Part shown: piece after piece, positions 23,739-30,023 of the stretch
Position numbering within the stretch: the stretch's first letter is position 1
How the letters are laid out: every line of letters begins with the position of its first letter
NCBI GenBank assembly: GCA_002159065.1
Contig: LZRV01000085.1
Location: forward strand, 1-64,000
DNA: 64,000 nt
Source: Paenibacillaceae bacterium ZCTH02-B3
GTDB taxonomy: Bacteria; Bacillota; Bacilli; Paenibacillales; Paenibacillaceae
Direction: 5' to 3'
Translations under genes and position numbers: made by a program
Notes under the pieces: generated by a model
Database searches by the model: none
What the model was told of the DNA's origin: nothing
What the model saw: the letters and a program-made list of their open reading frames with translations, nothing else

Positions 23739-23929
23739 TCGGACATCGGGTCCGAGAAAGACAACGGAAAACGGTTCCGCGAAAAGTTTTCGGACATATG
23801 GTCCGATGCGCGCATGCTGCGCCCGCGAAATCGTTTTCATTGGGGTTGGAGCGCGTTTATTCGGACGTATGTCCGAAAAAATTTTAATAGGGCCGTTTTC
23901 GGCTTTTTTTTTCGGACTGGATGTCCGAA
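23739..23929. repeat. Four-palindrome intergenic element, copy A (191 bp)
   Basis: Four palindromes TCGGAC-N4/5-GTCCGA lie at 23739-23755, 23790-23806, 23861-23876 and 23911-23929, with core starts spaced 51, 71 and 51 bp. The first two read GGACAT on the left side and the last two read ATGTCC on the right side, so the array is an imperfect inverted repeat of two half units. GAAAACGG (23767-23774) in the left half recurs as CCGTTTTC (23893-23900) in the right half. The same architecture, with different palindrome arms, recurs at 29833-30023. Function unknown. Confidence 0.85.
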
Positions 23930-25567: not shown

Positions 25568-25618
25568 AAGCACACCCTGTATCGGCGCCATGGCGCCGGC
25601 AGGGTGTGCTTTTTGTTT
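25568..25618 (+). terminator. Intrinsic terminator after the stomatin-like gene
   Basis: Twelve-base arms AAGCACACCCTG (25568-25579) and CAGGGTGTGCTT (25600-25611) enclose a second GGCGCC/GGCGCC stem and are followed by TTTTGTTTT. Confidence 0.95.
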
Positions 25619-25661
25619 TGCAGGCGATTGTCCGTCAGGCGATGGTCCGGAAAGGGGCGGA

Positions 25662-28022
25662 ATGCGGATGTTGGCGGTGCTGTACATGGTCGGGAACGGC
25701 GGAAAATGGGAAGCGCGCTGGACGGCGGCATGGGAAGCGGACCGGCGGTTTTGGCTGGATTCCGAGTTTCGCCTTGGCGTGCTGGAGGGAGGCGGAGAAC
25801 GGGATGAATCGGGCAAGACGGAAACCGGCGGTCTGCGATTGGCGGTGCTTGGCGAGCCGCTGCCGTTGGGCGTGGCGGAAGCCGCGGCGACGTGGCTGAT
25901 GGAACGGGTTGAAAGGACGGGGGCGCGGAAGGCAGGGACGGATGAGGAGGCGCTGTTTCTCTTGAAGGAGGCGGCCATCGTCTGCCGCGAATTGGCGGAC
26001 GAGGGAGCGAAGCGGCGGCCGGGTTTCCGCTCCGGTGTCCCGCCCGGTGTTCCTTTTGCGGGCGTGCCGCTTCCGCGCGGCGCGGCGTTGCTGACGCCCG
26101 ACGGACAGCGGTGGGCGGAGGACGAGAAGAGCCGGCGGGATTACGGACGGCGGCTCGGCCGGTTCGCCCGCCGGGCCGCGGATTGTCTGGCCGGCCAGTC
26201 GCTGTTGCCGGAGGAAGCGCAGCGGGTGTTGGCGGACGAGCTCCCGGAAATGAAGCGGGAGGAATGGCTCATGGCGGTGCAAACCGCGTGCCTGCTCGGA
26301 CGGGTGGAGCTTCGGTCGGCGCTGGAGCCCCGCGTCCCGACAGGACGGCTCATGCAGGCGGGACCACGCAACCCGGCGGGATCGCGCATCCTGACAAAAA
26401 TGCGCATCCTGACAGGAATGCGCATCCTGACAGGAATGCGCATCCCGGCAAAACGGCGCCTCCTGGCAGGATCGCATTTCTCGACGGGACAGCGCATGCA
26501 GGAGGGAACGCATATTCCGAAGGAACAGCGCACCCGGGCGGGAACGCGCATCCCGGAAGGGGGACGGTTTTTCAGCCTGCCGCGGCCGGAGCGGGTTCAA
26601 TCTTTTATTCGCCGGTGGTTCGGGCGACCCGTACGGGGCGGGTCCCTTCACTGTCGCCGCTGCGGGAGCGGAGAGAAAAGCCTGCGGCGGTCCCCCTGCG
26701 CTTCCTGCGGCCGCGTCTGCGCGGTCTGCGAAGCGTGCCTCACCATGGGACGCTGCCGGGAGTGCGAACTTTTGATCATCGGCCGTCCGGAGCGAAGGGC
26801 GGGCCGGCTGGCTATTCCCGAAGGAAGCCTGGAGCCGCTGCTTGACCGATGGAAGCTCAGTCCCGCCCAGAGGGAAGCGTCGGCGCAGGCGCTGGCCTTC
26901 ATCCGCGAAAGCCTGGGACGTCCGAAGATCGGCGAAGAAAGGATCATCGGGGAAGACCGCCGCTTCGAAAAGGAGGGACGATTCGCAACAGACCGGCGTT
27001 TCCTGTTGTGGGCGGTCACCGGAGCGGGCAAGACGGAAATGATCTTTCCGCTCCTTGATGCGGTGCTCCTGGCAGGCGGCCGCGCGCTTGTGGCCACGCC
27101 GCGCAGGGATGTGGTGCTGGAACTGGCGCCCCGCCTGGCCCGCGCTTTCGGCGAAGATCGCCTGTCCGTCCGTTACGGAGGCAGCCCCGACCGCAAGCGC
27201 ATCGCGCCGCTGACGCTGGCCACCACGCACCAGCTGCTCCGCTTCCGGGAAGCGTTCGATTTGGTGTTGATCGACGAGCTGGACGCCTTTCCTTTTCACG
27301 GCGATCCGATGCTGAAATTCGCGGCGGACAAAGCCCGCCGGACCGATGGCGTCACGGTGCTGCTCACCGCCACGCCGCCGCGGGAACTGCAGCGCGACGT
27401 GCGGAAAGGACGGCTGCCCTGCGCCAGGGTGCCGGTGCGGTACCACGGCTATCCGCTGCCGGAACCCCGCCGGCTCCGGCTCCCCGAACTTTCCCGCATG
27501 CTGCGGACGGGTCGCTTGCCGGCGCGGCTGATTCGGGCTTTGCGGCGGTCCGTCGCGGCGGGCAGCAGCCTGTTCGTGTTTGTGCCGTACGTGCGTCAGG
27601 CGGAGGCGTTTGCGGACCTGCTGCGAAGGCACGCATCCATGCTTGGGCTTGAAGCCGGCCAGATCGCGGGCACTTCTTCCCGGGATGCGGACCGCGGGCG
27701 CAAGGTCCAGTCGTTTCGGAACCGCGAGGTGCGCCTGCTGGTGGCCACCACCATTCTGGAACGGGGCGTCACGGTGCCGCGCAGCGACGTGTTTATCCTG
27801 GACGCCGACAACGCCATGTTTGATGAAACCGCATTGGTGCAGATGGCCGGACGGGCGGGCCGTTCCGCGGAAGCGCCGGACGGGCGGGTGGTTTTTGCCG
27901 GAAGGCACATGACCGCGGCGCAGCGCCGGGCGATCCGCCATATCCGCGGCATGAACCGACTGGCCCGGGAGAAAGGTTATCTCGTCCGGCTTACTGGATC
28001 CGCTCGGAGGGAAACGGGATGA
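25662..28022 (+). CDS. comFA: ComFA-like DNA helicase of competence, with enlarged N-terminal region
   Basis: ComFA is an ATP-driven DNA translocase that helps pull transforming DNA into the cell. The C-terminal 430 residues show the four-cysteine zinc motifs (HCRRCG, CASCG, CEAC, CREC), Walker A AVTGAGKTEM, LIDELDAFP, LLTATPP, FVPYVRQAEAFADLL, LLVATTILERGVTVPRSDVFILD and MAGRAGRS. The product is 786 residues, against about 460 in B. subtilis. The extra N-terminal 330 residues have no known domain and include 13 tandem six-residue repeats (26331-26564). Start ATG 25662 follows AAAGGGGCGG. It overlaps comFC by four bases. Confidence 0.9.
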   Translation: MRMLAVLYMVGNGGKWEARWTAAWEADRRFWLDSEFRLGVLEGGGERDESGKTETGGLRLAVLGEPLPLGVAEAAATWLMERVERTGARKAGTDEEALFLLKEAAIVCRELADEGAKRRPGFRSGVPPGVPFAGVPLPRGAALLTPDGQRWAEDEKSRRDYGRRLGRFARRAADCLAGQSLLPEEAQRVLADELPEMKREEWLMAVQTACLLGRVELRSALEPRVPTGRLMQAGPRNPAGSRILTKMRILTGMRILTGMRIPAKRRLLAGSHFSTGQRMQEGTHIPKEQRTRAGTRIPEGGRFFSLPRPERVQSFIRRWFGRPVRGGSLHCRRCGSGEKSLRRSPCASCGRVCAVCEACLTMGRCRECELLIIGRPERRAGRLAIPEGSLEPLLDRWKLSPAQREASAQALAFIRESLGRPKIGEERIIGEDRRFEKEGRFATDRRFLLWAVTGAGKTEMIFPLLDAVLLAGGRALVATPRRDVVLELAPRLARAFGEDRLSVRYGGSPDRKRIAPLTLATTHQLLRFREAFDLVLIDELDAFPFHGDPMLKFAADKARRTDGVTVLLTATPPRELQRDVRKGRLPCARVPVRYHGYPLPEPRRLRLPELSRMLRTGRLPARLIRALRRSVAAGSSLFVFVPYVRQAEAFADLLRRHASMLGLEAGQIAGTSSRDADRGRKVQSFRNREVRLLVATTILERGVTVPRSDVFILDADNAMFDETALVQMAGRAGRSAEAPDGRVVFAGRHMTAAQRRAIRHIRGMNRLAREKGYLVRLTGSARRETG
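26331..26564 (+). repeat. Coding minisatellite inside comFA, 13 units of 18 bp
   Basis: In-frame units of 18 bp with consensus ATGCGCATCCTGACAGGA encode degenerate hexapeptides of the type R-I-L-T-G-M (RILTKM, RILTGM, RILTGM, RIPAKR, RLLAGS and so on). The two central units at about 26399-26434 are identical and the outer ones have diverged. It lies just before the zinc-binding region. Confidence 0.85.
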
Positions 28023-28900
28023 GATTGCTGCATCGTCTCCGCACGATGGATTGGAGCCGTTGGCTGCGGGCGGAACTTGCGCATTGCCCGGTGTGCGGAC
28101 GCGCTTTCCGGCCGGTTGCCGTTCCGCTTCCCGTCGCATCGGGGCAGCCGCGCCGGGAGCTGGGCGCCCTGTGTCCGGATTGTGCGGACCGCATCCCATG
28201 GATTCTTGCTCCGTTGTGCAAGGTTTGCGGCCGTCCGGAACGGTGCGAGGACTGCCGCCGCAGGCGCGAAACGCATTTCGTCGTCTCCCGGAGCGCGGTG
28301 CGTTATGACGGGACGATGCGCGAATGGTTGGCCCTCTACAAGTATCGCGGCGCGGAGCGGCTGGAACCGGTGCTGGCGGCGATGCTCGCCCACGCGCTGG
28401 AACGAATGGCGGCCGAACTGGGGTTCGACGAACCCGGGAAGGCGTTCGGCATGATGACCGCGGTGCCGCTGTCGGACGAACGTCTGGCGGAACGCGGTTT
28501 TAACCAGGCCGAACGCCTGGCCCGCCGGCTGGCCGGTTGGTACGGCATTCCCTTTGCCCCGCTGCTCCGCCGGATTCGCCACACCGACAAAATGAGCTTC
28601 AAATCGCGCAGCGAACGGCTGACGGATGTCCGGGGCATTTTTTCGCCTGATCCTTTGATCGCCGCTGTGCTTGTCCGTCGCTCGCATTCCGTTGCCGCTT
28701 GTGCGCGCCAATCGTTATCCGCCGCCGGATCCGGCCGGCGCCCGCCGGTGAGCGGCAACAGCCCGCGTCCTTTGTACCGCATCCTGATCGTGGACGACGT
28801 CTATACCACCGGCAGCACCATGAACGAAGCGTCGCGGATTTTGAAAGGCGCGTTGGGCGCGGGATTTGAGCTGTTCGGCCTGACCTGGGCGAGATCGTGA
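28019..28900 (+). CDS. comFC: ComF-family phosphoribosyltransferase-like protein
   Basis: The 293-residue product has an N-terminal zinc ribbon (CPVCGR ... LCPDC ... CKVCGRPERCEDC) and a phosphoribosyltransferase fold ending in the PRPP loop ILIVDDVYTTGSTMNEASRIL. ComFC is needed for full transformation efficiency together with ComFA. It is longer than the usual 230-240 residues because of an arginine/serine-rich insert of about 35 residues (LVRRSHSVAACARQSLSAAG) just before the PRPP loop. The insert might disturb the active site. It starts inside the end of comFA (ATGA). Confidence 0.93.
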   Translation: MRLLHRLRTMDWSRWLRAELAHCPVCGRAFRPVAVPLPVASGQPRRELGALCPDCADRIPWILAPLCKVCGRPERCEDCRRRRETHFVVSRSAVRYDGTMREWLALYKYRGAERLEPVLAAMLAHALERMAAELGFDEPGKAFGMMTAVPLSDERLAERGFNQAERLARRLAGWYGIPFAPLLRRIRHTDKMSFKSRSERLTDVRGIFSPDPLIAAVLVRRSHSVAACARQSLSAAGSGRRPPVSGNSPRPLYRILIVDDVYTTGSTMNEASRILKGALGAGFELFGLTWARS

Positions 28901-29040: not shown

Positions 29041-29166
29041 ACCCGTGCGGGCATAAATTCCGGCTAAGTCTTGGCAATCGAAGACATGCTGTGGTCGTGA
29101 AGCACACGCCGCTTTGAACGCTTGTGTCGGAGCGGTTTTATATTTTTGGAAAGGAGACAGGGAGCC

Positions 29167-29853
29167 ATGGACGGATTTGACAAAATGTACGAGGCTTGGC
29201 TGAACGGACAGATTGCCGGGGAGAAAAACCGCCGCAGAAGGGAACTGCTCGAAAAGGGCCTTGGGCACGGTACCGTAGAATTTTTGCGCAATGTGTGGTT
29301 TCCGGCGATTGGCAACTTCGACCATCTGCATGCGGAATGGGAGGTGAGGGACTTTCACGGCGGATACCGGTATCTGGACCTGGCGTACCTTCCGGGCGGG
29401 GCCAAGGGCGGAATTGAAATCCAGGGCTACGGTCCCCACGCCAGGGATCTGGATGTCAAACGGTTCAAAGATCTTTGTTGGCGGCATTGCCTGCTGGCCT
29501 TGGACGGATGGCTCCTGTTGCCGATCGCCTACCTGTCCATCCGGGATGAACCGGAGAAATGCAGGCAGCTGGTTCTTGCCTTCGTGGGCAGATTCGTGTC
29601 TTTTTCCGTTCCGGCCTGCCTCGGCAGCATGGAGGCGGAGATCCTGCGTTTCGCCCGGAGAGTGCTCCGGCCTTTTTCCGCGATTGAAATGGCGGATCAT
29701 TTGCGGATTACCGACCGCCATGCCCGACGGCTGTTGAACGGCATGGTCGAATCGGGCCATTTGCGGGTGGTTGGCGGCAATCGGAGGTACAGAACCTATC
29801 AGGCGGATTTTGCCATGAGTACGCCAAAGCCCAACGGACATTTATTCCGTTAG
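29167..29853 (+). CDS. PD-(D/E)XK nuclease-like domain fused to winged helix
   Basis: The 228-residue product starts at ATG 29167 (GGAAAGGAGACAGGGAG upstream). Residues about 55-125 contain GGYRYLDLAYLPGG-x4-IEIQGYGPHARDLDVKRF. The spacing Asp71 ... Glu84-x-Gln86 ... His91/Asp94 resembles the catalytic core of DUF559/Vsr-like PD-(D/E)XK nuclease folds. Residues about 160-215 look like a winged helix (ILRFARRVLRPFSAIEMADHLRITDRHARRLLNGMVESGHLRV). I recall similar proteins in several Paenibacillus genomes, without a known function. The last codons (NGHLFR-stop) lie in the first palindrome of element B. It could be a DNA-acting partner of that element or a regulator; neither is proven. Confidence 0.75.
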   Translation: MDGFDKMYEAWLNGQIAGEKNRRRRELLEKGLGHGTVEFLRNVWFPAIGNFDHLHAEWEVRDFHGGYRYLDLAYLPGGAKGGIEIQGYGPHARDLDVKRFKDLCWRHCLLALDGWLLLPIAYLSIRDEPEKCRQLVLAFVGRFVSFSVPACLGSMEAEILRFARRVLRPFSAIEMADHLRITDRHARRLLNGMVESGHLRVVGGNRRYRTYQADFAMSTPKPNGHLFR

Positions 29854-30023
29854 AAAATGGAAAAACAATCCCGCCGAAATACAACGGACATTCAGTCCGT
29901 TAGCGCGATCGGAGTTCAATGGAAAACGTTTGCAACCGCTCTATGGGCGGTCCTAACGGACTGAATGTCCGTTAAGATTCCAACTCATCCGATTTTCGGA
30001 TCGTAACGGACCAGATGTCCGTT
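29833..30023. repeat. Four-palindrome intergenic element, copy B (191 bp)
   Basis: Palindromes AACGGAC-N5-GTCCGTT lie at 29833-29851 (one arm base changed), 29883-29901, 29955-29973 and 30005-30023, with starts spaced 50, 72 and 50 bp. Copies 2 and 3 are exact inverted copies of each other over 21 bp (29883-29903 and 29953-29973). As in copy A, the left pair reads GGACAT and the right pair reads ATGTCC. The total length, 191 bp, equals that of copy A. The first palindrome overlaps the end of the preceding gene. Confidence 0.88.

Follow-up and report, generated by a model that had tools for sequence, protein, structure and literature searches.

A dispersed four-palindrome repeat of Bacilli lies beside genes for its candidate cognate nuclease-like protein

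Element A, at positions 23739 to 23928 of the window (the whole stretch of 64,000 nucleotides that was analyzed, positions 1 to 64,000 of contig LZRV01000085.1 from Paenibacillaceae bacterium ZCTH02-B3), is a member of a family of dispersed intergenic repeats of ∼180 to 190 bp. Repeats of this design occur side by side with genes for one protein family; the pairing is motif specific, and the divergence of the two partners is correlated. We consider it moderately probable that the repeats serve as cognate sites for the protein encoded by a single gene at positions 29122 to 29853, that the two form a wrapped complex, and that a nuclease copies or moves the element.

The window holds two copies, A and B, each with four palindromes, two in the plus orientation followed by two in the minus orientation; direct reading of the DNA confirmed this layout, which the first-pass annotation had described. 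Neither element is assigned a strand as a whole. In A, a T..A subtype element, the plus-strand palindromes are CGGACATCGGGTCCG (23740 to 23754) and CGGACATATGGTCCG (23791 to 23805), and the minus-strand palindromes are one of 14 bp, with a loop shorter by one base (23862 to 23875), and CGGACATCCAGTCCG (23913 to 23927). Their starts lie 51, 71, and 51 bp apart, and the shorter third palindrome sets this copy apart from the others. Element B (29834 to 30022), of the A..T subtype, adjoins the candidate cognate gene and has palindromes at 29835 to 29849 and 29885 to 29899 on the plus strand and at 29957 to 29971 and 30007 to 30021 on the minus strand, with spacings of 50, 72, and 50; the nuclease-like gene and the first of these palindromes overlap at the gene's 3′ end. 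Also as described earlier, GGACAT is found in the left pair of A and ATGTCC in the right pair, GAAAACGG is repeated in inverted form, and an nfeD-stomatin operon follows, both genes of which match Pfam families (NfeD, 1.1e-9; SPFH/Band_7, 5.9e-41). An ATG at 23921, inside the fourth palindrome of A, opens the longest NfeD reading frame; the true start may be downstream.

The 3.12-Mb assembly contains 67 occurrences of the core CGGACATNNNNTCCG and a single one of a reversed control pattern. With the surrounding contigs included, 13 complete four-palindrome elements are present in this genome, all in the + + - - order and spaced 50-51/72-73/50-51 nearly throughout, with small deviations in A. 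Thus, we conclude that this is a real, dispersed family and not a product of chance. A pair pattern of the motif is carried by 10 of the 148 genomes examined from the same family and by 3 of 299 class-sampled genomes, and a scan of species genomes returned at least 116 stretches, in Rossellomorea, Alkalihalobacillus, Salibacterium, Gracilibacillus, Texcoconibacillus, Paenibacillus, Aquibacillus, and others. Relatives across Bacilli share the design, often in dozens of copies, as had been predicted for a conserved family with fixed spacing. Most of 107 elements in relatives have a 51/62/51 geometry with little variation; the middle spacing in this genome exceeds theirs by 10 bp, or one helical turn.

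We also observed tandem amplification of whole elements, with a period of about 250 to 264 bp, and of single 50-bp palindrome units, at sites in R. marisflavi (C1:1382239-1383192 and C1:1590421-1591389) and in genome G057 (C1:995045-995256 and C1:1407422-1407636). Genome G104 carries a half-element four times with an ∼211-bp period (C1:6761326-6762022), and near-identical copies lie elsewhere in G104. A Lachnospiraceae MAG has CGGACATTCCCTCCG four times in a single orientation with an exact 51-bp period (L103:6324-6492), which is possibly unrelated, and congeners of G057 without CGGACAT elements have tandem-repeat regions with an ∼52-bp period (L220, L227, and L230).

The anatomy of the elements favors a curved double-stranded DNA that would carry proteins on one face, not an RNA hairpin. 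We aligned 58 of the 107 elements, those with identical spacing, in both directions. Spacer sequence is not conserved among them, and A/T-rich blocks recur every ∼10.2 bp, at about positions 17, 28, 38, 48, 68, 78, and 89 from the first site; the flanks have no such periodicity. The same phasing reappeared in a set of 37 elements whose motifs differ. For the 58 elements linked to genes, we found a middle spacing of 61 to 63 in 48 and of 71 to 72 in 9, with hardly anything between, and this step again amounts to one helical turn. Phased A/T tracts, whole-turn spacing steps, and spacers without excess complementarity together argue for protein on predicted curved double-stranded DNA; judged from sequence, the element is probably curved.

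The first-pass annotation had suggested that the whole element could fold into one long branched hairpin or bind protein at four sites. We rejected the long hairpin: in five genomes, complementarity is no higher between the two spacers of an element than between spacers drawn from different elements. More generally, a structured RNA or terminator that acts in transcripts would fit the short palindrome at every site and the frequent location of elements 3′ of genes. We nevertheless judge it very unlikely, given that spacers do not covary with each other, stems do not covary within the family in 414 sites, spacing changes by whole helical turns, most relatives in the CGGACAT subfamily have stems of just 4 bp and loops of 7 nucleotides, and Rfam gave no match at the gathering score in the window and nothing credible for the elements in eight relatives.

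Palindrome symmetry is preserved across motif subfamilies through paired changes. Pair 5-15 is Watson-Crick at 41 of 58 loci (24.3 expected; 0 of 500 shuffles) and pair 4-16 at 50 of them (46.6 expected), and in a distant clade, four pairs reach z values of 3.5 to 6. The earlier proposal that sequence can change without loss of symmetry therefore applies between subfamilies; it fails for the contrast between A and B, whose arm difference, read at the time as a paired change, is due to whole-element T..A and A..T subtypes. Because whole elements belong to one or the other subtype, positions -1 and 15 covary in this genome (31 versus 20.2 expected). They do not in relatives (138 versus 142.5 expected, of 414), and we found no compensatory arm change within the CGGACAT subfamily in the same 414 sites.

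The candidate cognate gene (29122 to 29853, plus strand; likely start at 29167) ends within element B. Its family was found by comparison of element-flanking genes between organisms, together with DNA matches. Homologues of the window protein are present in 124 of the 148 family genomes, and a single genome can encode as many as 15 paralogues. Pfam, NCBIfam, and PADLOC gave no clear match for the window protein or for two close relatives; the window protein itself had no DUF559 match and no clear match in the PDB. Among 36 diverse members, 20 matched DUF559 and 19 matched REase_MTES_1575, and the matches cover residues 62 to 140 in the members examined; L385 and L387, among members scanned individually, exceed the curated DUF559 cutoff. 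The C terminus of the family matches winged-helix families. W44, L54, D62, D71, E84, H91, and L110 are invariant in the 36 members, and a D...E-x-(D/Q)-G...H pattern is conserved in the family. On the strength of these divergent relatives, we assign the N terminus as PD-(D/E)XK nuclease-like, of the DUF559 type, with D71, E84, and H91 as putative catalytic residues. Profile searches of the PDB gave credible matches to winged helices only, and an AlphaFold model run with three sequences is confident for the winged helix alone (N terminus poor, mean pLDDT of 51). No curated family spanning the whole protein was found in the libraries searched.

Genes for a ComFA-like helicase and a ComFC-like phosphoribosyltransferase lie upstream of the nuclease-like gene (25590 to 28897). 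Linkage to comFA-comFC is confined to this genome and was not seen at the other gene loci examined, so we rejected it as a general feature. A second, 36%-identical paralogue in this genome (L393; G000:C75:572-1192) has a weak candidate element alongside.

To assess the pairing of gene and element, we used 29 loci selected by protein similarity alone. A motif-blind array search found a four-palindrome element adjoining the gene at 25 of them, with no such array in 290 dinucleotide shuffles or at 23 control loci. A broader, earlier control set gave 7 positives among 45 loci: A and B, two in element-carrying genomes, and three tandem-repeat regions of congeners. A clear element is absent at 4 of 32 gene loci. 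In a second, more distant set of homologues, 35 of 58 loci scored and 23 did not. Where a template-based match was obtained, the element lies 3′ of the gene at 49 of 58 loci. The gene is present in 15 of 16 element-positive genomes; the exception is Evansella (G429), which has the element and lacks the gene. R. marisflavi has a single gene copy with elements on either side.

Most gene-linked motifs differ from CGGACAT. Examples are CGAAACTACGTATCG, CGGACTCCACAGCCC, and CGGACCGTAGTTCCG, which have a common frame, TAACGR...NTTATT, and some distant paralogues adjoin quite different palindromes. We tested the prediction that a non-CGGACAT motif should have dispersed copies in whichever genome encodes its paralogue. 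The motif used for this test, TAACGAAAC..., which adjoins paralogues in G074 and G084, had 16 matches in G074 and 11 in G084, with none in G057, in this genome, or in the controls. Distances between proteins and between their motifs are correlated (r = 0.54; 0 of 2,000 permutations), a value inflated by shared ancestry.

Copies within a genome or genus are 78 to 91% identical inside the element (some tandem neighbors more so); their flanks are random, and identity drops sharply at the outer palindromes. Sharp, inverted ends between dissimilar flanks are what one would expect of a MITE-like nonautonomous transposon that is moved by some other transposase, with the gene located nearby through an insertion preference or as former cargo. 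We think this improbable: across 107 elements, no length or offset of a target-site duplication was clearly above mispaired controls, no autonomous copy came to light among element-flanking genes, and the motif-specific pairing with the gene recurs over many paralogues and genera. The plasmids and phages searched also contained no element matches. We rejected a phage or plasmid origin for the element; one true element is on a viral contig, probably in host flank, and the nuclease-like protein was not found in viral contigs.

Both partners are under constraint. Between orthologous elements of G057 and P. humicus (G035), 4.9% of the motif positions not used for detection differ, compared to 20.6% of spacer positions and 31.7% of flanking ones, indicating purifying selection on the palindromes. 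Together with the paired changes across subfamilies, these differences bear out the earlier idea that symmetric sites are under selection. The nuclease-like gene has a dN/dS of 0.08 in the same comparison, a sign of strong purifying selection. Every locus pair compared between G057 and G035 has the element in both species, with no empty site among them, suggesting that movement is slow in the P. humicus lineage.

Such stability between sister species, along with the strong constraint on the palindromes, would also suit a sequence-specific DNA-binding protein that has been domesticated and perhaps lacks catalytic activity. The elements would then be fixed curved-DNA hubs that insulate neighboring genes or organize or protect the chromosome, with dispersal that was ancient or occurred by other means. 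We give this possibility a smaller, though appreciable, chance. By simple open-reading-frame calls, 35% of elements in relatives lie between convergent genes (19% background) and 11% between divergent genes (23% background), and the phased A/T tracts suggest wrapping; both observations agree with fixed hubs. So does the distribution in G057, in which the element pattern has zero matches from 1.93 to 3.93 Mb of C1, 2 Mb that presumably surround the replication terminus, and occurs at ∼37 places on the remaining chromosome. However, among the matches listed, the elements of R. marisflavi occur throughout the portion of the chromosome that those matches cover, and we therefore rejected terminus avoidance as a general rule. 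Also at odds with fixed hubs are copies up to 91% identical that Gracilibacillus, Rossellomorea, and others carry at unrelated loci, which point to fairly recent spread, and the invariance of the putative catalytic residues D71, E84, and H91 in the 36 members.

We return to the reading that we prefer, in which the protein recognizes and spreads its own repeat. The element is an inverted pair of half-elements, each made of two direct dyad-symmetric sites 50 to 51 bp apart on DNA whose A/T tracts recur in phase every ∼10 bp. Dimers of the protein would occupy the four palindromes along a single face of the curved DNA and give rise to a wrapped complex, and nuclease activity, present or past, would copy or move the element to new intergenic sites. 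The nuclease may spread the repeat, or it may use the repeat to organize or regulate the chromosome. More broadly, we lean toward a novel class of repeat-enzyme systems in Bacilli, in which DUF559-type nuclease/winged-helix proteins form families of as many as 15 paralogues in one genome and every paralogue maintains and disperses a curved four-palindrome element with a motif of its own. The family is apparently undescribed, and its novelty is provisional: in open-access papers, the literature covered, we found no description of a paired repeat-nuclease system.

If the pairing is functional, Bacilli hold an independently evolved counterpart of REPIN-RAYT systems that is built on a restriction-like nuclease, and the long-standing question of which role repeat-associated "domesticated" enzymes play in their hosts could be tested in a second, unrelated system. 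Motifs specific to individual paralogues make up a naturally occurring set of protein-DNA specificities, and structural studies have a defined substrate in the rigid four-site element. This reading would also provide a hypothesis for a protein family that is present in 124 of 148 genomes sampled from this taxonomic family and is unnamed by the curated libraries searched.

Several known systems resemble this one in part. The BIMEs of enterobacteria are mosaics of palindromes in opposite orientations that occupy extragenic DNA, often at the 3′ ends of genes, and vary in palindrome number and spacing. The elements described here share the opposite orientations, whereas their number and spacing are rigid, and no sequence relation to BIMEs was seen. 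Like MITEs, they are short, dispersed, and noncoding and have inverted ends, here through the + + - - symmetry. Unlike MITEs, they come without a target-site duplication or parent transposon that we could find, and conservation extends to their internal sites and A/T phasing. A comparison of genes beside elements found no transposase gene common to the flanks in different organisms. The protein, in turn, resembles DUF559/Vsr-like and REase_MTES_1575 PD-(D/E)XK nucleases by the profile match in residues 62 to 140 of family members and by the D...E-x-(D/Q)-G...H pattern and differs from these nucleases in its fusion to a C-terminal winged helix and in the dedicated repeat that its gene adjoins.

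The closest parallels are with REP/REPIN-RAYT systems and REPtrons, in which short dispersed intergenic palindromes likewise have an inverted arrangement and lie mostly 3′ of genes, a conserved cognate gene is flanked by the repeat, and several paralogue-specific repeat families exist (PMC3733652, PMC3116915). RAYTs are HUH/Y1 transposases, whereas the enzyme here is of the PD-(D/E)XK (DUF559) type with a winged helix. Unlike REPINs, the elements have four palindromes with a fixed 50/62/50 or 50/72/50 spacing and phased A/T tracts. Four element-carrying genomes (G000, which is this genome, G057, G035, and G104) had no match to the Y1 transposase family (PF01797), and we therefore ruled out a RAYT/Y1 transposase as the driver. 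Y1 genes are present in four Bacillaceae genomes. Two IS200-type Y1 transposase genes of R. marisflavi (L181 and L184; C1:1904010 and C1:2355363) each lie ∼80 bp before an element half; the two halves are identical in spacer sequence, which would fit an IS that carries or targets the element. Rather than the REPIN tag GTAG (or CGTC) at the palindrome foot, the consensus has TAACGR...NTTATT; REPs tagged with CGTC are reported to have no known enzyme (PMC3733652). As in REPtrons, a conserved gene adjoins its cognate dispersed palindromes, but that gene is unrelated to RAYT. The process that we propose would be analogous to that of RAYT enzymes and REPINs, with unrelated parts and probably a different chemistry.
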